Notes: a model not told the origin generated them from the letters alone. A stretch of DNA of 39,353 nt from Thermodesulfobacteriota bacterium (GCA_013154175.1 JAADCZ010000161.1:1-39353); one strand, 5' to 3'; shown: positions 10,105 through 23,682, counted from the first letter of the stretch. Program-made: numbers and translations.

Positions 10105-10284
10105 AGGTGATCTGCCGAATTTCTCATGGTAAATCATCAATTAGCTTGTAATAAGAAAAAAAAGCTATATATATTTGTTCTTGCAATCTTGGATGCGAGT
10201 TAGTGGGTGAAAGGTTAATTGTGGAGCTGAGGCCCAGGCCGCGATTATTTGGACAGCGCCTGGGTTTGTGAGGAGGATGTTTTT
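10105..10284 (+). promoter_or_regulatory. 180-base gap with a candidate sigma-70 promoter
   Basis: The gap between the HD-GYP gene and the kinase-like gene is AT-rich in its first half. TTGTAA (10146-10151) is followed, after 16 bases including a run of eight A, by TATATATATT; TATATA at 10168-10173 would be the -10 box. A clear AGGAGG (10271-10276) precedes the ATG at 10285. I see no strong terminator for the upstream gene. The call depends only on hexamer similarity. Confidence 0.3.
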
Positions 10285-11064
10285 ATGTCCAGTGAGAAGA
10301 ACGGGGCTGCCGTGAATATGCTTAGATATTTTCGGGATAGCCTCATTGGCAGAAATGCCAAGGGGATTGTGCACAATATGAACAGCCCCCTGCAGGTCCT
10401 TTCCATGCAGATTGAACTGCTTGGAATGGATTTAAATCAGTTGGCATCTCTGCCTTGTGACAACCAAGACCTGAAAAAGGGTTTAAATCAAATAATAGAC
10501 AGGCTAGGGCAGCTTGAAGGTATCGTAGACAAGATCAATCACCTGGTTAAGCTGGTGGGATCAAGGGTCTACGATGAGGAACAGGACGATGAGGAAAGTC
10601 CTGTCATGGTCTCACAGCTTATTGACGAGACAGTGGAGTTCTGGAAATCCGATTTGTTCTTCAAACACAAGGTGGATGTAAAGCTTTCCATGCCTGAAAT
10701 ATCTCCTGTGGTGGTCTCCAAGGAGCAATATCTAAAGGACGCAATAGACAGTATACTCTTTGGCTGCATAGAGATGCTCAAGGATGCCAATGAGCCTGCC
10801 TTGGGCATCGAGGTCTCTGCCAATGGGGAGACGGATATTGCCATATCGTTCAGGCCCCAAGGAGTCAGGTTCCCAGTGGAGAAACTTGGCCAGGCAACCT
10901 CTTTGATGGAGACCTCCAGCGACCAGGGTAGCGGCTGCGAGATATCCCTGAGCCCCCTGGACGTCGCCATGGCAGTGGCAAAGATGAGCATTCAGAAAAT
11001 AGGTGGTGACTTCACCATGAAGGATGATGAGGTTACCGTGAATCTCAAGGCTGTAACGTCATGA
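10285..11064 (+). CDS. Histidine-kinase-like protein with divergent ATPase domain
   Basis: The ATG at 10285 is preferred over the track start at 10249 because AGGAGG lies 8 bases upstream; the product is 259 residues. No transmembrane segment or sensor domain is present. Residues 24-50 (NAKGIVHNMNSPLQVLSMQIELL) resemble the H-box of DHp domains (HExxxPL type), with His30 as the possible phospho-acceptor. The C-terminal half looks like a HATPase fold in outline (ILFGCIEMLKDANEPALGIEVSANG, then GSGCEISLSPLDVAMAVAKMSIQKIGGDFTM), but the usual N-box asparagine and the DxGxG motif are not recognisable. It may be a phosphotransfer protein or an ATP-poor pseudokinase. The stop overlaps the next gene by ATGA. 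Proximity to three receiver proteins suggests a shared pathway. Confidence 0.6.
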   Translation: MSSEKNGAAVNMLRYFRDSLIGRNAKGIVHNMNSPLQVLSMQIELLGMDLNQLASLPCDNQDLKKGLNQIIDRLGQLEGIVDKINHLVKLVGSRVYDEEQDDEESPVMVSQLIDETVEFWKSDLFFKHKVDVKLSMPEISPVVVSKEQYLKDAIDSILFGCIEMLKDANEPALGIEVSANGETDIAISFRPQGVRFPVEKLGQATSLMETSSDQGSGCEISLSPLDVAMAVAKMSIQKIGGDFTMKDDEVTVNLKAVTS

Positions 11065-11641: not shown

Positions 11642-13141
11642 ATGATTGATGATCTGAAAAGCCTCATTAGAGACCAGATTCTGGCTGTAAGGCAGCAAGA
11701 CCTTTTGGCCTATCTTGGAATGGGGCAGGGTCACGATCAAATCCAAACCAAAATCTCTCCCATCACCAAGGAACAGGTAAAAGAGATAGAAGGGCTCGTG
11801 GAAAGGGGCCTTCTACACAGGAATTATTACTTCTACGCCTGTGATCTCTTTATTCGCCAGAAGGTGGAACCCGCCCAGGAGATGCTGGATCAGTGGATGA
11901 GTGGTGCCAAGGCCCAGGTTGGGGGCGAGGATATAAAATTTTCCAACATCATATCCTGGTGCCAGTACCAAGACAGCAAGGAGAAAAGGGATCATCTCGA
12001 AAGAGAGGCAAGGGCACTTTGCAGGTTTCTTTCGCCCTTTAGCGAGGCAACATGGCAGACCACCTTCAGGGCCGTTACCGAAGATCTGGGTTACAGCGAT
12101 TATTTGGGTTTCCTGCGCAAAAAAAGGGGGAGCGTACTGGATGCGGACATTGAAAATGCCAGGAGCTTTCTGGAGCAAACCAGGGATGGCTATTTCACCC
12201 TGATAGATACATGGTTCGAAAGGATTCCAGAACCCGTCATCCCAGGAGACAGGAGCCGCTTTGATGCAATCTATCTTCTTGGAATGCGCTATCTCGACTC
12301 CCTTTACCCCGATGACTGGAAGGGTGAGGAAGGAGTCAACAAAGCCGTAAACTTCTTTCAAGGGCTCGTACGCAACCTAGATGGACTAAATATCCACATC
12401 ACATCATCCTCAGGCGGAAATCCCTGCTGTTTGCCTGTGAGCATTCCCGGTGAGGTGCATGTCATAGCAGGGCCCCTTGGGGGCTGGATAGATCTTGAGG
12501 GACTCTTTCACGAGCTTGGTCATGCCCTTTTCTTTCTGGGCCACAGCGAGGAACTTCCCTTTGAGGCAAGGGAGCTCTTCTTGGAACCCGCCCTTTCTGA
12601 GGCCTTTGCCTTCTTGTTTCAGCTTGTATCCCTGGACACCACCTTTCTCACCAGGGTCATGGGCCTTGGGGAAAGGGATGCTGAAATACTGTCCATAATG
12701 CAGAAGGTTAAGTTTCTGACCCTAGCAAGAAGATATTCTGCAAAGAGCATTACGGAATATGAAAATTTCAAGGGCTGTGGCAGACAGGAGGGAAAGAGAC
12801 GCTACGCCCAACTTCTGGAGAGACATACCGGCTTTCGCTACCAACCTGAGACATACTATTTCGATCTCATGCCCGACCTCTACAGCCTCGACTACTTCAA
12901 GGCCTTTGTCGCCTCACTTTCCATGGAGCGCCATCTTGAAGGAGACAATGGGCCAGGGTGGTTCCTCCACGAGTCAGCCAGGGAGCTTTTGGGCAAGTGG
13001 GCCTTTTGCGGCAACACCATGAGCCTCGAGCAGTTCATGATACGTCACCTTGGCATGGAAGCCTGCCATGAACCCTTTGATTTTGCCATAAATGGTCCCC
13101 TTTTGGATGGATATGTCAAAAAAATGGCACAAAATGTTTGA
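11642..13141 (+). CDS. Zinc metallopeptidase, M3 (oligopeptidase)-like
   Basis: A 499-residue protein without signal peptide. The sequence GLFHELGHALFFLGHSEELPFEARELFLEPALSEAFAF contains HELGH (His290, Glu291, His294), the gluzincin zinc site, and FLEPALSE about 21 residues on (Glu315 as probable third ligand), arranged as in M3 oligopeptidases and M3-like families. The rest of the protein is helical and not closely recognisable to me, so it may be a divergent M3 member. Intracellular peptide hydrolysis is the likely role. It lies 26 bases after the SGNH hydrolase and is probably in the same transcript. The ATG at 11642 lacks a strong ribosome-binding site. Confidence 0.7.
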   Translation: MIDDLKSLIRDQILAVRQQDLLAYLGMGQGHDQIQTKISPITKEQVKEIEGLVERGLLHRNYYFYACDLFIRQKVEPAQEMLDQWMSGAKAQVGGEDIKFSNIISWCQYQDSKEKRDHLEREARALCRFLSPFSEATWQTTFRAVTEDLGYSDYLGFLRKKRGSVLDADIENARSFLEQTRDGYFTLIDTWFERIPEPVIPGDRSRFDAIYLLGMRYLDSLYPDDWKGEEGVNKAVNFFQGLVRNLDGLNIHITSSSGGNPCCLPVSIPGEVHVIAGPLGGWIDLEGLFHELGHALFFLGHSEELPFEARELFLEPALSEAFAFLFQLVSLDTTFLTRVMGLGERDAEILSIMQKVKFLTLARRYSAKSITEYENFKGCGRQEGKRRYAQLLERHTGFRYQPETYYFDLMPDLYSLDYFKAFVASLSMERHLEGDNGPGWFLHESARELLGKWAFCGNTMSLEQFMIRHLGMEACHEPFDFAINGPLLDGYVKKMAQNV

Positions 13142-13256: not shown

Positions 13257-14669
13257 ATGAGAAACGAGTGTATCCTGGTCGTCGACGATTCGCCAGATAT
13301 TCGCTTTACCATGTCCGAAGTCCTTAAAACCAAGGGCTTTTCAGTAGAGAGTGCAAGCGACGGTCAGGAAGCCATTGAGATGCTGGAGAATCGATTCTTT
13401 GACATCGTCCTGACAGATCTCAGCATGCCTAGAAAGACGGGTATGGACGTGTTGAGATATGTCACTGAGAATTCTCCAGAGACGATCTGTATCATCATCA
13501 CAGGTTTTGGAACCATTCAGGGCGCTGTCGAGGCCCTGAAGATAGGCGCCTACGATTATCTTTGCAAACCCATAAAGCCCGACGAGGTCACCATCCTCAT
13601 TGACAAGGCCCTCGAGGTCAGGGATCTCAAGCGCGAGAACCGAAGCCTCAAAAAGGAGCTCAAGAGCCGTTACGGTTTTGACAACATCATCGGCACGAGC
13701 AAGCCCATGCAAGAGGTCTTCAGGCTCGTTGAAAAGGTGGCTGACACAGACAGCACCGTGCTGATAACCGGTGAAAGCGGTACAGGCAAGGAGCTGATCG
13801 CCCATTCCATTCACTATGCCAGTGACAGAAAGGACGGACCGTTCATCCCCGTCAACTGCGCAGCCATTCCAGAGGAGCTTTTGGAAAGCGAGCTCTTTGG
13901 TCATGAAAAGGGCGCCTTCACCCATGCCATCAAGACGCGCATTGGCAGGTTCGAGCTTGCGAACAAGGGCACTATATTCCTTGACGAGATAGGGGAAATG
14001 AGCCCATCTCTTCAGGTCAAGCTCTTGAGGGTCTTGCAGGAGAGAAAGTTTGAAAGGGTTGGAGGCGTAAAGACCATCTCTGTGGATATAAGGGTGGTGG
14101 CCGCCACCAACCAGGATCTGGAAACAGCAGTCAAGGAAGGCAGGTTCAGGGAAGACCTCTATTACAGGCTCAACGTCATTCCCATTCATGTGCCGCCCCT
14201 CAGGGAGAGGCGCAGCGATATCCCCCTTTTGGCAAAGTATTTCCTGGAGAAATATTGCAAGGGCAAGAGAAAGGGCGTCCAGGGGATTTCAGACGAGGCA
14301 ATGGAGATCCTTGTGAGATACGACTGGCCAGGTAATGTCCGGGAGCTCGAGAACATTATCGAGAGGATGGTAATTTTGGCCAATGGCGATATTATTACCA
14401 AGGAAGACTTGCCTCTTCAGATAGTGGAAAAGGCTGGCTGTTCCCCTGGCTTTTTGGCAGTCTCTGGCGAGGCAATGGAGTTTCCAGATGAAGGCCTAAG
14501 TCTAAGTCAGGCAGTGTCTGAGTTGGAGAAGACCTTGATACTGAAGGCCCTGGAACGCACGGGCGGTGTCAAGAACCGTGCCGCAAAACTCCTTAAGATG
14601 AATCGTACCACGCTCATCGAGAAGATGAAGAAATTGGGCCTCATGCCAAAGTCCAAAAAGGCAGCTTGA
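13257..14669 (+). CDS. Sigma-54-dependent response regulator (NtrC family)
   Basis: Domains: receiver (1-120; [45 protein letters not shown]), AAA+ sigma-54 interaction domain (about 140-380) and Fis-type helix-turn-helix (about 420-470; [40 protein letters not shown]). Walker A is GESGTGKE (172-179), Walker [12 protein letters not shown], and the R-finger region [23 protein letters not shown] is intact. The sigma-54 contact loop reads GAFTHA (219-224) rather than the usual GAFTGA. AAGGAGA lies 8 bases before the ATG. A sigma-54 promoter lies about 8.4 kb downstream before fliL, so this could be a flagellar regulator, but no direct link is seen; the target may equally be the next two genes or loci elsewhere. 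Confidence 0.95.
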
Positions 14670-14676
14670 GTAAAAA

Positions 14677-16266
14677 ATGAGAAATTTTTTAAAGTTTTGT
14701 TTCAACCTTTCAGTTTTAGTCTGTGTTGTCGTTTTCTCTCCACATTTTTCAACCAATTTTGTATTTGCCTCTTCCCCGACCTCTGGTTCGGCCCTCGTGG
14801 CAATGAAACCCATTGAGAGCAATCTTCAGTATGTGGGGAAGGCATTGACCCAGATGTTCGTTACAAGGCTCTCCTCCGAGGGTATCGACACGGTACCCAT
14901 CAAGCCAGACGGGGAAAATGAAACCATCGTCCAGTTGGCGGATTTCCTCTTTGGCGGCAAGGTGTACCAGAAGGGGGATCACTACGAGGCAACCTTCAGT
15001 CTCAAATCTGCCAAGGATGGCTCGGTTGTAAAGCAGTGGCAGCTTCGTGCCCAGACCCTTGATACCTTGGCCAGGGATGCAGCCCTTCTTTCTGCAAAGG
15101 TTGCCGATGTTGTTAAAAATAGCGGTCAGGTAGTGGCTCCAGAAAGTGCAACTACACTTTCGGCCCTGTCGGCTCCAGGTGCAGACACTGTGGATACCAC
15201 AGATGAGTTCAGGATGGCCCGGCTTCATCCAGATATTCTCGTCAGGGAAAAGCTAGAAAAGGATGAAGAAAGGGAGATCGAGGAGCAGAAGAGGGGCCTT
15301 AGGCCATCTGCCACAGGAGGAAGTGCAGGAGATGATTATGCTCCCCTTCCAGATGTTTATGACAGCGGGGATGATGTGACAGAATCAGATTCCCAAAAGG
15401 CCCCCTATAAGGTGGCAGGTGAGGGCGCAAATGGTCAGCAGCAAGAGGAAGAAGACTATGACTCCTACATGCCTATCCCAGATGTCTACGACCCTGAAAG
15501 CGATGAGGGCCCATCTGAAAGGATAGCCTCAAGTGTTCCTTCCAAGGAAGTTTCCGCCACCACGTCCAGCAAGGGCGAAGGGAAGGGCAAGAGTTGGTAT
15601 TCCTGGCTTTGGCCCTTTGGAGGGGACGAAAATAAAAAGAAAGAGGAGCTCGTCTCCCAGGCAAAAAAGACAAGGCTTGAAAACGAGGAGGAAGACAGGG
15701 AGCCTGTGGTTGTTTCAGGAAAGGAAAGGCTTCCTCTGCCACCGCCTCCAAAGGTGGATTTCAATATTCCAGAGCCAGTTCCCCTGGACAGGGCCCTTAG
15801 CGAGATAGAGAACATCAAGGTCCAGAAAAAGGAGAAAAAGGGCTGGCTCTCAAGGCTTTGGCCCTTTGGTCACGAGGATGAGGAAGTGACCATCCTGCCT
15901 GAAAAGGGCCAGAACAGAACAGAGGTTCAAGATTCTGTTGTTCAGTCAACACCCCAGAACATTGCCAACACCCCAGCGACAAAGAAACCCAGTGTGGATG
16001 AAGGTCTTCATCCCTTTGAGTCTGGTGAGCAGATAGAGGCCTTCAGAAGACATCTAGAGATGGAAGATAAACCAGCTGAGGGTCGAGGCCACACTGTTGA
16101 GACCCCAGAGGTAGCCAGCGACAAGGCCCAGGGGAACATACCCGTTGTCACAGGTGGAAGCGTTGAGGCGCCAAAGGTTGAAAGTTCAAGTAAAGACTCG
16201 GACGATGAGTCAGACAAAGGGCCACGCCCTGAAGACTTCAACCACCCTATCTGGCAGTGGAATTAA
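14677..16266 (+). CDS. Exported acidic repeat protein of unknown function
   Basis: A 529-residue protein starting 7 bases after the regulator stop. Residues 1-32 form a signal peptide (MRNFLKFCFNLSVLVCVVVF...FVFASS). Residues about 35-150 form a compact domain (ALVAMKPIESNLQYVGKALTQMFVTRLSSEGIDTVPI) whose outline recalls the N-terminal domains of FlgO/CsgG/TolB-type envelope proteins; that is a weak impression. The rest is long, acidic and probably disordered, with two internal repeats: PLPDVYDSGDD / PIPDVYDPESD and SWYSWLWPFGGDE / GWLSRLWPFGHED, each followed by charged linker. No transmembrane anchor follows the signal peptide and no lipobox is seen, so it is probably periplasmic or surface-associated. 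It lies 55 bases before the AAA ATPase gene. I do not recognise a function. Confidence 0.75.
   Translation: MRNFLKFCFNLSVLVCVVVFSPHFSTNFVFASSPTSGSALVAMKPIESNLQYVGKALTQMFVTRLSSEGIDTVPIKPDGENETIVQLADFLFGGKVYQKGDHYEATFSLKSAKDGSVVKQWQLRAQTLDTLARDAALLSAKVADVVKNSGQVVAPESATTLSALSAPGADTVDTTDEFRMARLHPDILVREKLEKDEEREIEEQKRGLRPSATGGSAGDDYAPLPDVYDSGDDVTESDSQKAPYKVAGEGANGQQQEEEDYDSYMPIPDVYDPESDEGPSERIASSVPSKEVSATTSSKGEGKGKSWYSWLWPFGGDENKKKEELVSQAKKTRLENEEEDREPVVVSGKERLPLPPPPKVDFNIPEPVPLDRALSEIENIKVQKKEKKGWLSRLWPFGHEDEEVTILPEKGQNRTEVQDSVVQSTPQNIANTPATKKPSVDEGLHPFESGEQIEAFRRHLEMEDKPAEGRGHTVETPEVASDKAQGNIPVVTGGSVEAPKVESSSKDSDDESDKGPRPEDFNHPIWQWN
15342..15880 (+). repeat. Internal repeats in the exported acidic protein
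   Basis: Two kinds of unit occur twice. A PDVYD unit is encoded near 15342 and 15472, and a W-L-WPFG unit near 15598 and 15844. The second pair shares the 16-base identity GGCTTTGGCCCTTTGG at 15605-15620 and 15854-15869. The aromatic WPFG islands stand out from an otherwise acidic background and look like short binding motifs. Confidence 0.75.
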
Positions 16267-16321
16267 ATCGCTAGACATTTCTTTCGCACATTTTTTTCGC
16301 AAACATCATTAGGAGGGCAAG

Positions 16322-18577
16322 GTGAATCCAGATCATAAACTCCTTTTATTGGGCTCCAACGTCAGGATTACCAACCTTCCCATTAAAGAAGTCAGCATGA
16401 TAGCAGAGGGTAGCCTGCCAGCCTATGGCTACAACCCAGGGGACTTCATTGAGCTACTTGCTGGTGACATCACTGTGGAAGAGGGGCGTCTCGAGCAGTG
16501 TCTCACATGGCTGTCGCTATTTTTCACACCTTCAGAGCTTGCCCCCAAGATTTCGACCATATCCTATGGCGAGTCCAGGGATGTCTTCCAGATGTTTTAC
16601 AGAAGGGCCGATCTCGTGGAAGATGAGGATCATGGCTGGTTCATGATGCGCCAGATCCTGCCCCCTGGAGGCAGGCCGCAACAACCAGATACAGTCGATC
16701 TTTCAGGGGAAAACCTAAAGAAGGTCCAGGGTAACTCAGGCATCATCATTGTTGATGATGGAGGCAATCCCCCGCGTATCGCCAAGGAGCTTAAAAAGAG
16801 GAATCCAAATGCATGGGTGATGGCCCTTGGGATCACCCCGGCCCACTGGCAGGATTGGGCCGATGCCTTTGGCAACAAGTTCATGCTCTTTTGCAGGCTG
16901 TCTGATCTTGAGACAACCCGCATGGAAATGGACAGTGCTGTTGTGTGGGAGTCCCTGGTAGCCATGTGTATCAGGGCCCTAAAGTCCGATGAGGTTGGGC
17001 TTTGGAGGGCCTCCTCCATGAGGTTCAAGTGCCACATCCTGGTGGAGATGTTTCCAAATGCCCTTCTCTATGTGGGGCCAAGGCGCATGATGTTCAGGCA
17101 CAAAATGGGCAGTCTGCCAGAAAGGGGCTCAAATAGGCAGCGTGGTTCCGTTCCCTGTTTCGATACCCTTGTGACAGCAATGCTTACCCTTGACGGACTG
17201 CGTCTTTCAAGGATTCCAAGCGAAAGAAGTTTCTTCTTTGATTTTTCAAAAAGGGTGCTTATGAACTGGGAGCTCCTGCGTCAAAAGGGGTATGCATTTT
17301 CTGGCGCACTGGAGTTTCCAAACCTGGATTTTTCAGCCAATTACCCACGTGGTGTGCCCTGTTCATTCCTTGAGACCGAGTCTGACCCCTGCTTCTTTGA
17401 ATTGCCTCCCTACAGCCTCGAAATGGAACGGATACTCGAGCAGGTGTCGTGCCAGGCCTGGAACGAGGAGAGGAAACAGGCCATCAGGCAATTTTTCACC
17501 AACGTAGAAAAACGCTCCATCTGTTATATCGACGAAAAGCCAAAGAACCTTGGCTACATTTCTGTGATTCTCCAGGTGCTTAGAAATCTCAAGGAGGAAG
17601 TGAACCGCAAGAACGGTTTCAAGGATTTGAGGATTTTCAGTATTGGTCATCTTCGTACCACTGACCCTGCAGAGATTGCCCCGGTTGTTACCCTAAGGGG
17701 TGTGATGAACAGCTATGTCATGAGGGATGTGTGCAAGCGCCCCCTGTGTATTGGGGTATTTGGGCCGCCAGGGTCTGGAAAATCCTTTGCAGTGGAACAG
17801 GTAGCACGGGTTATTGCTGAAAACTTCGATAACAACCCCTTTGAGTTTTTCGAGTTCAATCTCACCCAGTTTTCAGGGCCTGAAGAGATAAATTCTGCAA
17901 TTGATCTGGTCAGGGCCAGTGTGGCAAAGGGAAGGGTGCCAGTCGCCTTCTGGGACGAATTCGACTGCAAGTATGACAACAATGAATTTGGATACTTGCG
18001 TTATTTCCTGCCATCCATGCAGGACGGGGTTACCTATGTCAACGGTATCCCCAGATACATTGGCAGAAGCGTCTTTGTATTTGCCGGAGGGGTAAAGGAT
18101 TCTTACTCTGCCATGGAGGATTTGCTCAAGACAGACGATCCAGAAGAGTTGAGGCACGTCAAGGCCCTTAAGATACCAGACTTCATGAGTAGGCTACGGG
18201 TTGTGCTGGATATCGATGGCATCGATATTCCTGAGGAACTGCTTAGAGATTCGGCAAGTGGCGTAGAGTTAGAGATGTTGAAGAGGATTCTTCTGAAAAG
18301 GGCTTTCATCATTGCCCACCAAATGGAAAACCACTGGAAAAAGGCAGCCAGAAAGACCTCTGGTTTGCTCCTTAGGCTTCTCATTGCAAAGTACAAGTTT
18401 GGTGCACGAAGCATCGAGGCTGTTATAGAGGCCAGCCAGGCCGCAGACAGGCTCGTCTATGGGCTTCCCGAGCTCATTGCACCGCCCAGTGCCAGGATAC
18501 ACGCTGAATGGCGGGTTGGGCTCGAAAGGCGTATCGACCGGATAAGAAAAGAGTTTGGCATGCGGGGAATCTGGTAA
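16322..18577 (+). CDS. Large AAA-type ATPase with an uncharacterised N-terminal region
   Basis: A 751-residue cytoplasmic protein starting at GTG 16322, supported by AGGAGG 5 bases upstream. Residues 460-600 carry a P-loop ATPase: GVFGPPGSGKS (481-488 core), Walker B VAFWDEFDC (Asp545-Glu546) and a sensor-like segment SVFVFAGG. The N-terminal 400 residues are unusual: AEGSLPAYGYNPGDFIELLAGDI, GIIIVDDGGNPPRIAKEL, NAWVMALGI, then TRMEMDSAVVWESLVAMC and CHILVEMFPNALLYVG. From memory this layout resembles the ribokinase/PfkB-like N-terminal domain of large bacterial ATPases sometimes annotated with RyR domains, but the kinase active-site motif is not evident and I see no RyR domain. It follows the exported repeat protein and precedes a PAP2 gene by 2 bases. 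Function is unknown. Confidence 0.75.
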   Translation: MNPDHKLLLLGSNVRITNLPIKEVSMIAEGSLPAYGYNPGDFIELLAGDITVEEGRLEQCLTWLSLFFTPSELAPKISTISYGESRDVFQMFYRRADLVEDEDHGWFMMRQILPPGGRPQQPDTVDLSGENLKKVQGNSGIIIVDDGGNPPRIAKELKKRNPNAWVMALGITPAHWQDWADAFGNKFMLFCRLSDLETTRMEMDSAVVWESLVAMCIRALKSDEVGLWRASSMRFKCHILVEMFPNALLYVGPRRMMFRHKMGSLPERGSNRQRGSVPCFDTLVTAMLTLDGLRLSRIPSERSFFFDFSKRVLMNWELLRQKGYAFSGALEFPNLDFSANYPRGVPCSFLETESDPCFFELPPYSLEMERILEQVSCQAWNEERKQAIRQFFTNVEKRSICYIDEKPKNLGYISVILQVLRNLKEEVNRKNGFKDLRIFSIGHLRTTDPAEIAPVVTLRGVMNSYVMRDVCKRPLCIGVFGPPGSGKSFAVEQVARVIAENFDNNPFEFFEFNLTQFSGPEEINSAIDLVRASVAKGRVPVAFWDEFDCKYDNNEFGYLRYFLPSMQDGVTYVNGIPRYIGRSVFVFAGGVKDSYSAMEDLLKTDDPEELRHVKALKIPDFMSRLRVVLDIDGIDIPEELLRDSASGVELEMLKRILLKRAFIIAHQMENHWKKAARKTSGLLLRLLIAKYKFGARSIEAVIEASQAADRLVYGLPELIAPPSARIHAEWRVGLERRIDRIRKEFGMRGIW

Positions 18578-18579
18578 AA

Positions 18580-19242
18580 GTGTTCCCATTCATTACTGGT
18601 ATTGCCCCATGCAGCAGGCGTCAATGCCTCTATCTTGCAATGTTGGCCTTTATAGCCCTCTCCATTTTGATTCCAGTGGATTCATTGGTGTTCAAGATGT
18701 TGCTCCCCCTTTCAGACAGCAGTTTAGGCACCCTCTGGGCCCATACGGCCGACCTTCTTGGAAACGGCCTGCTTCTTTACCCTGCCGCCCTTGTGGCACT
18801 GCTGTTTCTGCCTACCCGGGCAAGCCGCAGAAAGGGTTTCAGGGAAGCGGTTGCCCTCTTCGCCCTGGCAGGCCTTGCGGGGCAGGTGTTTAAATTCTTG
18901 ATTGGCAGGCCAAGGCCGGGCATGGGCCTCGAGGCCTGGGATCTCAATGCCTTTTCATTATCCAGCGATTTTCATTCCTTTCCTTCAGGCCATACGGTGA
19001 CTGCATTTTCCGTTGCCTTGGTCCTATGTTACTATTTCCCCAGGTACAGGTCTTGGTGGATTGGATTGGCCCTTTTCATCAGCATTGGAAGGCTTGTTGG
19101 TCAGTCTCACTTCCTTACGGACATTGCAGCAGGCATCCTCATATCTTGTTTTGCAGCTGAACTGGTATTTGTGCACGACATACAAGGATTTCTTCATTCA
19201 GCCTCGTCCAAGGGTGGAGAGCTCAAGGCTGACAATGTCTAA
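18580..19242 (+). CDS. PAP2-family membrane phosphatase
   Basis: An integral membrane lipid-phosphate phosphatase. Motifs: KFLIGRPRPGMG (KxxxxxxRP), SFPSGHTVTAF (PSGH with catalytic His) and GRLVGQSHFLTDIAAG (SRxxxxHxxxD-like, with Gly in place of Ser). About five or six hydrophobic segments are visible. The track start at 18508 lies inside the ATPase gene; GTG at 18580, 2 bases after that stop, gives 220 residues and is preferred, though an overlapping start cannot be excluded. The substrate may be undecaprenyl pyrophosphate, lipid A phosphate or phosphatidylglycerol phosphate. Placement ahead of aminoarabinose-type genes favours a role in lipid A or lipid-carrier dephosphorylation. Confidence 0.88.
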   Translation: MFPFITGIAPCSRRQCLYLAMLAFIALSILIPVDSLVFKMLLPLSDSSLGTLWAHTADLLGNGLLLYPAALVALLFLPTRASRRKGFREAVALFALAGLAGQVFKFLIGRPRPGMGLEAWDLNAFSLSSDFHSFPSGHTVTAFSVALVLCYYFPRYRSWWIGLALFISIGRLVGQSHFLTDIAAGILISCFAAELVFVHDIQGFLHSASSKGGELKADNV

Positions 19243-19274
19243 TCATCAGGGCGAATGAGAGGAGTGAAATAGCT

Positions 19275-20198
19275 GTGTCTGTCGTACTTCTTGGCTACCA
19301 CAACATGGGCTGCAGGGCCTTGAAGGTGCTGAGAGAACTGGGGGTTCAGGTGCCTGCAGTCTTCACCCACCGGGACAGTGCCGGGGAAAACATCTGGTTT
19401 CAGTCCCTGGGGCAAATGGCAAAGGAGCAGGGGATAGCAGTTTACTATCCTGAGGATATAAATCAGGATAAATGGGTAAGGCTCATCGAGGAGCTTGCGC
19501 CAGAGTTGATTTTATCCTGCTATTTCAGGCAGATGGTAAAGGAGAGGATTCTTTCCATCCCTCCAAAGGGGGCTGTGAACCTCCACGGTTCACTCTTGCC
19601 GAAATATCGGGGAAGATGCCCGGTAAATTGGCAACTGGTTCATGGAGAGACCATGAGTGGAGTAACCCTTCATTACATGGTTAAAAAGGCTGATGCAGGC
19701 GACATAATAGCCCAGGAAAGGGTGGAGATAGCCCCGCGGGATACTGCCCAGAGTCTTTTTTCCAAACTCGAGGATGCAGCAGAGAGGGTGCTTAGGCAGT
19801 ACATTCCAAAACTTTTGGATGGGACCGCCCCGCGAATTCCCCAGGACCATTCCAAGGCCACCTACTTTGGAGGAAGAAGGCCTGAGGATGGCAAGATAGA
19901 CTGGAGCCAGGATGCACAATCCATTTACAACCTCATAAGGGCGGTGACGTGGCCGTACCCAGGTGCCTTTTGTGAGCTTGAAGGCCGAAAGCTCTTTATC
20001 TGGGATGCAGAGCCTTTAAAAGAGGCAGATACCGGTCTTCCCACTGGTACGGTGGTTGTCAGAGACGACGAGCCAATGGTGCAGACAGGAAAGGGATTGC
20101 TAAAGATCCTTGTAGCCTCCTTTGAGGGTAAGCCTCCTGAAGGCCAGGAGGAAAGGATACCATCAGAGCTTTTCCAGCAAGGGGTGCATCTTCGCTAA
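19275..20198 (+). CDS. ArnA-type N10-formyltetrahydrofolate-dependent sugar formyltransferase
   Basis: A 307-residue stand-alone homologue of the N-terminal half of ArnA. Signature residues are present: AVNLHGSLLPKYRGRCPVNW (Asn and His of the catalytic triad and the SLLPKYRG loop) and YMVKKADAGDII (catalytic Asp). In ArnA this half formylates UDP-4-amino-4-deoxy-L-arabinose. The C-terminal 100 residues (KIDWSQDAQSIYNLIRAVTWPYPGAF) match the usual formyltransferase C-terminal domain. It starts at GTG 19275 with GAGGAG about 11 bases before. The next gene encodes the ArnA C-terminal activity, so the bifunctional enzyme is split here. Formylation of another UDP-amino sugar is possible. Confidence 0.88.
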   Translation: MSVVLLGYHNMGCRALKVLRELGVQVPAVFTHRDSAGENIWFQSLGQMAKEQGIAVYYPEDINQDKWVRLIEELAPELILSCYFRQMVKERILSIPPKGAVNLHGSLLPKYRGRCPVNWQLVHGETMSGVTLHYMVKKADAGDIIAQERVEIAPRDTAQSLFSKLEDAAERVLRQYIPKLLDGTAPRIPQDHSKATYFGGRRPEDGKIDWSQDAQSIYNLIRAVTWPYPGAFCELEGRKLFIWDAEPLKEADTGLPTGTVVVRDDEPMVQTGKGLLKILVASFEGKPPEGQEERIPSELFQQGVHLR

Positions 20199-20239
20199 CA
20201 CTCATCACGTAGTCAAAGGGGTGCAGGAGAGTAGGATTG

Positions 20240-21295
20240 ATGAAGATACTGATTCTTGGAGTCAACGGTTTTATTGGCAGTCACTTTGTTAGAAGGGCCA
20301 CTGAGGAGACAGACTGGGAGATATATGGCATGGACCTGGCCTGCGACCGGCTCGGTGACAGGGTGGATCATCCAAATGTCAATTTCATCGAAGGGGATAT
20401 TTCAATCAATAAGGAGTGGATAGAGTACCATGTCAAAAAGTGTGACCTGTGTCTACCCCTCGTGGCGATTGCAACGCCTGCCAGCTACGTCAAGGACCCT
20501 TTGGCAGTGTTTGAGCTGGATTTTGAGCAAAACCTGCGAATTGTCAGGCAATGTGCCAAGTATGGCACCAGGGTGATATTTCCCTCCACCAGCGAGGTCT
20601 ATGGCATGTGTCCAGACGAGCGCTTCAATGAAGATACGAGCAACCTCGTCTATGGCCCAATACACAAGCAGCGGTGGATTTATGCCTGCGCCAAGCAGAT
20701 GATGGACAGGGTGATCTGGGCAATGGGCAAACACAAGGGTCTTCAGTTTACTCTAATCCGCCCATTCAACTGGATAGGTGCTGGCCTCGATAGCCTTGCG
20801 ACCCCAAAGGAGGGAAGCTCCAGGGTTGTGACCCAGTTTCTAGGTCACATACTTCGGGGTGAGCCAATAACCCTGGTGGACGGAGGCACCCAGAGGCGCT
20901 GTTTCACATACGTTGACGATGGTCTGGATTGTCTCTTCAAAATTATAGAGAACAAGGATGGTTGCTGTGATGGCAGGATATTCAACATAGGAAACCCTGA
21001 AAACGACTATTCCATCAGGGACCTGGCTGAAACCATGATAGAGGTCGTCAGGGAGTTTCCACAGCTTGCACACCTTGCAGACAAGGTGAGGTTCAAGAGC
21101 GTATCCTCCAGGGAATATTATGGGCCAGACTATCAGGATGTGGGTTACAGGGTCCCTGATATCACAAATGCCAAGAAAATATTGGGTTGGGAGCCCAGGA
21201 TTGGCCTTAAGGAGGCCCTTAGAAGGACGATTGCCTTCTATGTAGACTCAGGGGACATAGCCATAGACCAGCTTGGGCGCCCTGGAGACATCTGA
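20240..21295 (+). CDS. ArnA C-terminal-type UDP-glucuronate decarboxylase (SDR family)
   Basis: A 351-residue extended short-chain dehydrogenase. ILGVNGFIGSHFVRR is the NAD-binding Gly motif at the N-terminus; FPSTSEVYGMC and YACAKQMMDRVIW give the Ser/Thr and YxxxK catalytic residues; LIRPFNWIGAGLDSL, GGTQRRCFTYVDDGLDCL and IFNIGNPENDYSIRDLAE are characteristic of the ArnA decarboxylase domain. The expected reaction is oxidative decarboxylation of UDP-glucuronate to the UDP-4-keto-pentose, the first committed step to L-Ara4N. The ATG at 20240 is preferred over the TTG at 20237. It lies between the formyltransferase and ArnT-like genes, forming a compact operon. Confidence 0.9.
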   Translation: MKILILGVNGFIGSHFVRRATEETDWEIYGMDLACDRLGDRVDHPNVNFIEGDISINKEWIEYHVKKCDLCLPLVAIATPASYVKDPLAVFELDFEQNLRIVRQCAKYGTRVIFPSTSEVYGMCPDERFNEDTSNLVYGPIHKQRWIYACAKQMMDRVIWAMGKHKGLQFTLIRPFNWIGAGLDSLATPKEGSSRVVTQFLGHILRGEPITLVDGGTQRRCFTYVDDGLDCLFKIIENKDGCCDGRIFNIGNPENDYSIRDLAETMIEVVREFPQLAHLADKVRFKSVSSREYYGPDYQDVGYRVPDITNAKKILGWEPRIGLKEALRRTIAFYVDSGDIAIDQLGRPGDI

Positions 21296-21307
21296 CAAGA
21301 TACCTCG

Positions 21308-22984
21308 ATGAAGTTTACAGCGAGCCCCTTGCTAGAAGGCGTCCGCAACTGGCGGTCGCCTTTAGTTTTTGTGGTTTCATGCTCAGTGGCCTTCTTCTTG
21401 GTCGCTGCCCTGGTGCTCTCTTTGCGGGATCCCTACGGGATGGAGGCAAGGGCAGGGCTTTTTGTAAGGGCGATACTAAATGGCCACGGCCTGGTATGCC
21501 CCATCCTTTATGAAAGGCCCTATCCAGACTATCCGCCCCTTTTCTTTTTGCTCGAAGCCCTTTTCTGCTCTCTAAACTCAGATGTAACTGCCCTGTGCTT
21601 GGCACTTCCAAGCCTCATGAGCGCAAGCCTTCTCATCCTGCTCGTTTTTAAGAGCGCAAAAAGATACCTGGGGGAGAAGGAGGCCCTTGTTGCCTCTGCA
21701 ATACTCTTTGCAACCCCCTTCTTTTGGTTTAGTGCCCAGAGGGCCACAGTGGACATGCTTCTTGGGCTTCTGGTCTATTGCGCAAACATCTCCTTTTTTG
21801 CAGGCCTTTGTGATACTGAGGGCGGGCGTGTGAGGCCAGGGATGGTTGCCCTTGGGCTCGCCTTTATGGCCGGGGCCTATTGGGTCAAGGGGCCCATTGG
21901 CATTGCCCTGTCTACTGCTTCCTGTGCCATTTTTCTGACTGTCAGAAGGAGGTGGCGGAAGCTGGCAGTATTCCTGCTCGTGGTGATGTTGGCAAGTTCA
22001 GGGCTGATCTTCTTTCATTACCAGTTGCTTCTAGGCCAAGGCGGCAACACCCTTGCCATGAAGGTCCTCGATGCCCAGTTCCTTGGAAGGTTTGGAGGAC
22101 GGCCCAACAAGCCCTTCTATTATTACTTTGTCTTTTTGACCTTGACCTTTTCCCCCTTTCTCCTTGGAATGCTAGCCTTTTTCTTGAAAAGAGGCAGAAG
22201 GAATCTGGTGAAATGGAAGGAGTGTCTTGGGGGAAAGGGCGATTTTCGCCTCTTTGTAACTATCTTTTTTGCTACATGCGTACTTCCATTTCTTTTTGCC
22301 TCATCGAGGCATGGCCGTTATCTCCTTCCAGCCTTTGCTCCCCTTGCCGTGGTGCTTTCATGCCCCATTACAAAAATCTTGGAAGCTCTCGAGTCTGCTT
22401 TTTGGGCCAGGGCCATACGGGTGGTTCGAGGGCTCTACCTGATGGGGCTCGTGTCTGTATCGACCCTCTGGTTTTTTGACCCCCTGGAGTCGAGGGTTCC
22501 AATCTGGGCCATAGGGCTCTGGTTCACCTGTGCCCTGGGCCTTTTCATAGCCAGTCAAAGAGTGAGGGTGAAGGAAGGATTCACCTTTTTTGTTTCGCTC
22601 TGTGTCACCCTCTTTGTCCTCACCACAGGACTCACCCTGGTGACTGAGCCAGGTTTGTCGCGCAGGGAGTCTGGCAGGCAATTCGTGGCTGCCACTGAAG
22701 GTTCTGTAAAGGTTTCTAAGGGGGTGTATCTGATAGGCCTCAAGTGGGACGGAGATGGGCTTAAGTATTCATTGTTCAGCAGATACTATCCGCAGGGGAT
22801 TCATCTCATTCGCAGGTTACAAGATCTGGAGTCCGCCCCTTGGGGCAGTATTGTCGTCCTTTATGAACGTGACCTTGAAGGCTTTATTAAAAGATTTAAT
22901 GTTTCAAATTATTCAGTCATTTCAAGGGGTTTGATTCACGCAAAAGGCGTTGTCTCCATATTTCTTCCTCCAAGAGCGTCATAA
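21308..22984 (+). CDS. ArnT-like glycosyltransferase (GT-C, PMT/GT83 type)
   Basis: A 558-residue polytopic membrane protein with around 11-12 hydrophobic segments. Near the N-terminus LRDPYGMEARA takes the place of the DPDEGRYAE-type catalytic loop of ArnT, and YPDYPPLFFLLEALF matches the following KPPL..W element; GAYWVKGPIGI also fits. These enzymes move a sugar from undecaprenyl phosphate to an acceptor on the periplasmic face, L-Ara4N onto lipid A phosphates for ArnT. The catalytic Asp-Pro is present, while the exact acidic residues differ, so substrate may differ. It ends the run, followed by a 164-base gap with the flagellar promoter. No arnB, arnC or arnD is in the window. Confidence 0.82.
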   Translation: MKFTASPLLEGVRNWRSPLVFVVSCSVAFFLVAALVLSLRDPYGMEARAGLFVRAILNGHGLVCPILYERPYPDYPPLFFLLEALFCSLNSDVTALCLALPSLMSASLLILLVFKSAKRYLGEKEALVASAILFATPFFWFSAQRATVDMLLGLLVYCANISFFAGLCDTEGGRVRPGMVALGLAFMAGAYWVKGPIGIALSTASCAIFLTVRRRWRKLAVFLLVVMLASSGLIFFHYQLLLGQGGNTLAMKVLDAQFLGRFGGRPNKPFYYYFVFLTLTFSPFLLGMLAFFLKRGRRNLVKWKECLGGKGDFRLFVTIFFATCVLPFLFASSRHGRYLLPAFAPLAVVLSCPITKILEALESAFWARAIRVVRGLYLMGLVSVSTLWFFDPLESRVPIWAIGLWFTCALGLFIASQRVRVKEGFTFFVSLCVTLFVLTTGLTLVTEPGLSRRESGRQFVAATEGSVKVSKGVYLIGLKWDGDGLKYSLFSRYYPQGIHLIRRLQDLESAPWGSIVVLYERDLEGFIKRFNVSNYSVISRGLIHAKGVVSIFLPPRAS

Positions 22985-23083: not shown

Positions 23084-23111
23084 CTAGTTGGCACAGTGGT
23101 TGCTCAACTAG
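23084..23111. repeat. Perfect inverted repeat enclosing the sigma-54 promoter
   Basis: CTAGTTG (23084-23090) and CAACTAG (23105-23111) are perfect inverted arms separated by 14 bases. The left arm ends inside the -24 element and the right arm begins directly after the -12 element. It could be an operator or chance dyad; an RNA hairpin role is unlikely because most of it lies upstream of the predicted start. Confidence 0.6.
23088..23104 (+). promoter_or_regulatory. Sigma-54 (RpoN) promoter of the fliL flagellar operon
   Basis: TTGGCACAGTGGTTGCT matches the -24/-12 consensus TTGGCAC-N5-TTGCW with no mismatch in the core, and the invariant GG (23090-23091) and GC (23102-23103) are 10 bases apart. 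It is the only such site found in an intergenic region and lies about 45 bases before the fliL ATG. Initiation is expected near 23115. Activation would require an NtrC-type enhancer-binding protein. Confidence 0.87.
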
Positions 23112-23148: not shown

Positions 23149-23682
23149 ATGGCAAAGGAAGAAAAAAAGGAAAAGGCAGAGGCAGAGGCAAAGGAAGCGA
23201 AAGAGAAGAAAGGTGGCTCCAAGCTCCTAATCATCATCATAGCCCTTTTGGTACTCATCATTATCGGGGGTGCCGGGGCCTTCTTCCTTCTATTCTCAGC
23301 ACCTAGTGACGAGGAAATAGCAAAAGAGATAAAGCAGGATGAAAGCCCCCAGGAGATAGTGGCCCCCACGCCAGAGAGCATCGGTGTGGTGGTGGATCTA
23401 AAGCCCTTCCTCGTGAACCTTGCTGATCCCAAGGCGAGGCACTTTCTAAAGGCCACCCTCTCCTTGGAGGTAAAGGACGATGAGGCAAAGGGGCTCGTGG
23501 AGCAGTTCTTGCCCAAGATTCGTAATGACATATTGCTGCTCCTTAGTAGCAAGACCCTCGAGGATGTCATCACCATCGAGGGCAAGGTGCGGCTCAAGGA
23601 TGAAATCATGTCCAGGGTGAGCAGGATAATTGGCCCTGGGCAACTCAAGGATGTCTATTTTAGCCAGTTTGTCGTGCAGTAG
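23149..23682 (+). CDS. fliL: FliL, flagellar basal body-associated protein
   Basis: FliL surrounds the stator around the rotor and supports torque and stator function. The 177-residue protein has a lysine/glutamate-rich cytoplasmic head (KEEKKEKAEAEAKEAKEKK), one membrane helix at about 25-48 and a periplasmic domain with VVVDLKPFLVNLADPKARHFLKATLSLEV and the C-terminal VYFSQFVVQ, the family hallmark. GGAG precedes the ATG. It is the first gene after the sigma-54 promoter, and fliM starts 11 bases after its stop. Confidence 0.95.
   Translation: MAKEEKKEKAEAEAKEAKEKKGGSKLLIIIIALLVLIIIGGAGAFFLLFSAPSDEEIAKEIKQDESPQEIVAPTPESIGVVVDLKPFLVNLADPKARHFLKATLSLEVKDDEAKGLVEQFLPKIRNDILLLLSSKTLEDVITIEGKVRLKDEIMSRVSRIIGPGQLKDVYFSQFVVQ

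Follow-up and report, generated by a model that had tools for sequence, protein, structure and literature searches.

The window, the whole stretch of 39,353 nucleotides analysed here, comes from a bacterium of the Thermodesulfobacteriota whose class is taken to be Dissulfuribacteria. Two genes are at issue in it: that of an exported protein, labelled EXP, and, 55 bases further on, a GTG-started gene referred to as the ATPase; both lie where the sequence-only reading had placed them (Table 1). Homologues were searched for in the genome itself, in 60 relatives, in the class (46 genomes) and in about 300-400 genomes of the phylum, after which the gene neighbourhoods were read. Since a scan of genome contigs by exact peptides returns near-identical copies only, the survey is confined to Desulfobacterota. 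Searches of Pfam, NCBIfam, PADLOC and PHROGs gave no name to either protein beyond the AAA core of the ATPase, and EXP had no Pfam match at all.

Table 1. Features of the window bearing on EXP and the ATPase
Feature	Position	Strand	Basis or remark
Histidine-kinase-like protein upstream of the regulator	10249..11064	+	HisKA E 4e-5 (below cut-off); kept upstream of NtrC-EXP
HELGH-motif protein of 499 aa, encoded between kinase and regulator	11642..13141	+	conserved position
NtrC-type sigma-54 response regulator, conserved neighbour of EXP	13257..14669	+	Pfam domains; next to EXP in five genomes from two further genera
EXP, exported acidic protein, 529 aa; motifs WLWPFG and PDVYD, and PIWQWN at the C-terminus	14677..16266	+	ATG start; closes the kinase-NtrC operon of related genera
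EXP N-terminal domain (about residues 30-163), predicted PelC/TolB-N/CsgG/FlgT-type alpha/beta fold	14764..15165	+	AF2 and Foldseek
ATPase, 751 aa, solitary AAA+ protein related to RyR-ATPases, lacking the RyR domain	16322..18577	+	ORF, GTG start; hhalign; 29 orthologues; Pfam AAA only
ATPase residues 138-368, homologous to RyR-ATPase N-terminal region	16733..17425	+	hhalign 97%, E 8.8e-11
ATPase residues 433-720, AAA+ core	17618..18481	+	47% of columns invariant in 29 orthologues
Walker A GPPGSGKS, residues 481-488	17762-17785	+	motif
Walker B FWDEFD, residues 543-548	17948-17965	+	motif
SRL motif of the ATPase	18188-18196	+	motif
GARS motif of the ATPase	18401-18412	+	motif
Sigma-54 promoter TGGCACAGTGGTTGCT	23089..23104	+	upstream of fliL (23149-23682)

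EXP has a hydrophobic, signal-like N-terminus and is acidic (94 D+E against 61 K+R). The repeats noticed in the earlier reading are present, WPFG at residues 312 and 395 and PDVYD at 225 and 268; each occurs only twice in the window protein, neither was repeated in any of 2000 residue shuffles, and both are kept in 11 orthologues, which indicates that the motifs are real. WLWPFG, a second tryptophan-rich motif and a C-terminal P-[IV]-W-x-W show no or almost no variation in the same 11 proteins. An AF2 model of the N-terminal domain, built from four sequences, reached a pLDDT of about 90 over most of the domain, and Foldseek matched it to PelC (E 1.8e-7, TM about 0.44-0.56) and further to the TolB N-terminal domain, FlgT, GNA1162, LpoB and CsgG. 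The envelope location proposed earlier agrees with this model, on which EXP is a predicted periplasmic or envelope-type protein whose PelC/TolB-N/FlgT-like domain is followed by a long acidic tail. The tail, of some 350 residues, is an addition to the fold shared with PelC, TolB-N, CsgG and FlgT, and its WLWPFG and terminal PIWQW motifs are unnamed in every library searched. EXP also differs from the PelC and CsgG lipoproteins in that, by eye, no lipobox cysteine follows the signal-like stretch ending in FVFASSP.

The surroundings of EXP point to a regulatory operon. In five genomes (G010, G011, G014, G016 and G018) from two other genera of the family of the window, EXP directly follows the NtrC-type regulator while the ATPase is located elsewhere; in these genera, where the contig reaches, the kinase lies upstream of the NtrC-EXP pair, and in several of them so does the HELGH protein. 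The last of these has no match in Pfam or NCBIfam, and its HELGH motif is zinc-protease-like. fliL has a perfect sigma-54 promoter 60 bases upstream, which is retained in five members of the genus, namely those with fliL in the stretch read. In six genomes, no -24/-12 site was found within 160 bases of the starts of EXP or of the ATPase, and the same was true of the regulator and kinase genes. Because the perfect site precedes fliL and none precedes these other genes, the target of the regulator is likely to be the flagellar genes, and a flagellar role for EXP may be envisaged. The likeness of EXP to FlgT, a flagellar basal-body protein, fits such a motility context. EXP would then close a two-component operon connected with motility, in which it comes after the kinase, the HELGH protein and the NtrC-type regulator. 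In genus g4, a protein that by eye resembles CheX lies beside EXP (L103 6058-6747, L104 10346-11050, L105 7115-7798), again a motility or chemotaxis context.

The start of the ATPase gene is preceded by AGGAGG and, since the orthologues align from about residue 3-5, is correct to within a few codons; the product has 751 residues, as given previously. Pfam recognises the AAA domain only (PF00004, E 2e-5). Walker A and Walker B are intact, as had been claimed, and every residue in them but S485 is invariant in 29 orthologues. Judged by motif, the arginine finger (S623-R624) and sensor 2 (G694-A695-R696) are likewise invariant. At the place expected for sensor 1, there is an invariant FVFAGG, in which AGG stands instead of a polar residue, with neither Asn nor Thr; a normal ATPase cycle is thus not assured. 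The orthologues, 60-91% identical, are found in single copy in Dissulfuribacteria and in four other Desulfobacterota families. The ATPase is a single, strongly conserved, mostly vertically inherited cytoplasmic AAA+ gene. Downstream of it (18508-22984) lie a PAP2 phosphatase, an ArnA-like formyltransferase and a UDP-4-keto-pentose synthase, each encoded by its own gene, and a distant ArnT-like transferase, which is probably a cluster of the lipid A aminoarabinose type.

Membership of the Qat, MADS or bpMoxR families was considered for the ATPase and dropped, the window protein falling below the cut-off or giving weak E-values. With the MoxR proteins of MoxR-vWA-beta-propeller systems (Pfam bpMoxR), there is a weak P-loop similarity (E 1e-5 to 3e-4, the window protein below cut-off), but the window ATPase has no vWA or beta-propeller partner beside it and its N-terminal region is unlike theirs.

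A much closer relationship is that with the RyR-domain ATPases, which the sequence-only reading had suggested from two peptides, VWESLVAMC (residues 208-216) and HILVEMFPNALLYV (residues 238-251), both present in the ATPase. When the 29 orthologues were aligned by hhalign with seven RyR-clade ATPases, the probability was 100 and the E-value 4.8e-55 over residues 138-714; the AAA+ core alone gave 100% and 3e-53. The N-terminal regions alone are also homologous, as the table records, with residues 1-137 not aligning to the RyR-ATPases. The two families (the RyR-domain proteins including those of Methylobacterium sp. FF17 plasmid pA and of loci L086, L087, L090 and L091) have in common a core with GPPGxGKSF, FWDEFD, PDFxSRL and GxRS. 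They differ at the C-terminus: the RyR domain (PF02026), present in six of the seven RyR-clade ATPases, is absent from the window ATPase and from its 28 other orthologues, and these solitary proteins end shortly after the core. In a tree, all 34 solitary proteins fall on one side of a branch supported at 100/100; because the RyR branches are long, the tree supports nothing beyond this solitary clade. One member of the genus (G002) has a solitary copy and an RyR-type copy. Searches of viral collections produced one full RyR-type relative and no solitary-type ATPase, phage records contained no relative, and a plasmid search gave two of the RyR clade.

The neighbours of the two families also differ. 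Alongside the RyR-ATPases at the loci examined are TIR, ThsB-type TIR, NB-ARC, NACHT and DUF4062 proteins, whereas no TIR, STAND or other conflict gene was found at about 30 loci of the solitary family, which is single-copy, conserved and a clade of its own. The RyR-domain ATPases of L035 (2280-11592), L087, L088 and L090, accompanied by TIR (some ThsB-like), NB-ARC/NACHT and DUF4062-WD40 proteins, form what looks like a Thoeris-like signalling locus with little or no published description, and these loci may exceed the window gene in novelty. A further RyR-clade ATPase, with no RyR domain evident, was found on a 117 kb IMG/VR viral contig (L092 5287-8181), near ParB-like and DNA-methylase-like genes. 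The solitary ATPase would descend from the RyR-domain ATPases of TIR/STAND conflict loci or share an ancestor with them. According to recent work (PMC13232231), RyR-domain proteins of phages bind ADP-ribose immune signals or break them down, so an ATPase lacking the RyR domain plausibly lacks an ADP-ribose signal input.

Some leads, all weak, tie the ATPase to respiration. The cydAB genes directly precede it in one genome of the class (G031) and lie near it, with genes between, in two others (G023 and G024); they also precede it in three genomes outside the class (G371, G388 and G406), making three families in all. The CydA proteins at these loci are of two types, only 35-38% identical, which suggests that the proximity is not simply one inherited locus. 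Within the class, cydA occurs in 28 of the 29 ATPase-positive genomes and in 6 of the 17 negative ones (Fisher 9e-6, uncorrected for kinship, some of the negative genomes being incomplete assemblies). Most of this association comes from a single family (f2), in which two genera lack both genes and one has both; cydA was not detected in the ATPase-positive genomes G014, G256 and G277, and most ATPase loci do not adjoin cydAB. Hydrogenase genes, MobB and RACo each lie beside the ATPase once or twice, which may be chance in such genomes. Elsewhere in the genome of the window (contig C70, L100 7948-10567), a YedE gene and small DsrE/TusA-like genes form a YTD cluster, a proposed marker of sulfur disproportionation. 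YedE was tried as a discriminator inside the class and failed, being present in ATPase-positive and ATPase-negative genomes alike.

How, then, are the two genes to be interpreted? The earlier suggestion was of a joint module, energy-driven, acting in the envelope or in signalling and controlled by the sigma-54 regulator; their common strand and spacing are indeed conserved throughout the genus. However, in about 35 loci compared, the adjacency is confined to this genus; wherever else one or the other gene occurs, the two are apart, and most ATPase-bearing genera lack EXP. No sigma-54 site precedes either gene, while fliL has one. Moreover, identity among members of the genus is 84-90% for the ATPase and about 35-45% for EXP, a further sign that they evolve separately. 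Outside the genus, the neighbours of the ATPase differ in nearly every lineage and are mostly scrambled, and no conserved operon partner emerged from the loci read. A joint module is thus extremely improbable. We consider it probable, after a discount for mechanism, that EXP and the ATPase are two independent genes, with the ATPase placed as described above; its position downstream of EXP in this genus is happenstance. Another suggestion concerned the N-terminal region of the ATPase, parts of which were likened to a ribokinase-like (PfkB) domain; such a domain might couple the phosphorylation of nucleotides or sugars to AAA+ activity. The RyR-ATPases start with a GD-x-x-x-D-like motif, and later stretches of them resemble PfkB by eye. 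The window family, though, has GSNVRI where the GD motif is expected, and Pfam PfkB matches none of the 29 solitary and 7 RyR-clade proteins. Hhalign against 22 PfkB proteins of relatives gave 0.1-0.2%, equal to unrelated controls, a soft negative given the narrow PfkB alignment; an AF2 model of the ATPase from few sequences (pLDDT 35.5) was too poor for a fold assignment. A ribokinase-like region now appears decidedly unlikely.

Given its relatives, the solitary ATPase could still be a stress or anti-phage sensor that does without the RyR domain; its N-terminal region might, for instance, read a nucleotide instead. The proximity of the RyR family to TIR (including ThsB-type), NB-ARC and NACHT proteins, the action of phage RyR-domain proteins on immune signals and the relative on a viral contig would all be consistent with this. 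Yet no defence neighbours were found at about 30 solitary loci, the best PADLOC match of the ATPase has an E-value of only 0.025, and slow evolution with mostly vertical inheritance is unlike that of defence genes, so that such a sensor seems rather unlikely. A different possibility is a specific tie of the ATPase to sulfur disproportionation, in which it would act together with the YTD gene cluster. Each of the nine ATPase carriers found outside the class encodes a YTD-type YedE (E < 1e-95), which only 10 of 285 genomes outside the class possess; four of these carriers came to light once the association had been noticed and constitute a small independent test, uncorrected for kinship. Nevertheless, these carriers belong to four families whose shared ancestry is uncontrolled, and five outside genomes have a strong YedE but no ATPase. 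Moreover, YedE occurs in all 46 genomes of the class, even though 17 have no detected ATPase, and in the stretches read no YTD genes lie close to the ATPase. A specific tie of this kind is improbable.

With EXP and the ATPase taken as independent genes, we would tentatively propose that the ATPase forms an oligomeric AAA+ machine, the N-terminal region of which would recruit a client to be remodelled by the ring. This client might be a respiratory or redox membrane complex, for which cytochrome bd is the best single lead. A bolder version, which we regard as unlikely, is that a conflict-type RyR ATPase was domesticated once, in anaerobes that disproportionate sulfur: having shed its ADP-ribose-sensing RyR domain and its immune partners, it would have turned into a core AAA+ factor for the assembly or protection of redox complexes, cytochrome bd among them.

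The removal of a false lead, the pairing of EXP with the ATPase, leaves a cleaner one in the form of an unnamed AAA+ family related to the ATPases of TIR/STAND loci. Beyond its AAA core, this family is covered by none of the libraries searched, and it is conserved in single copy among bacteria with a poorly understood sulfur metabolism. If the ATPase does serve respiration, an immune-type ATPase would have turned into a housekeeping factor, although the direction may be either way, that is, domestication or the reverse.
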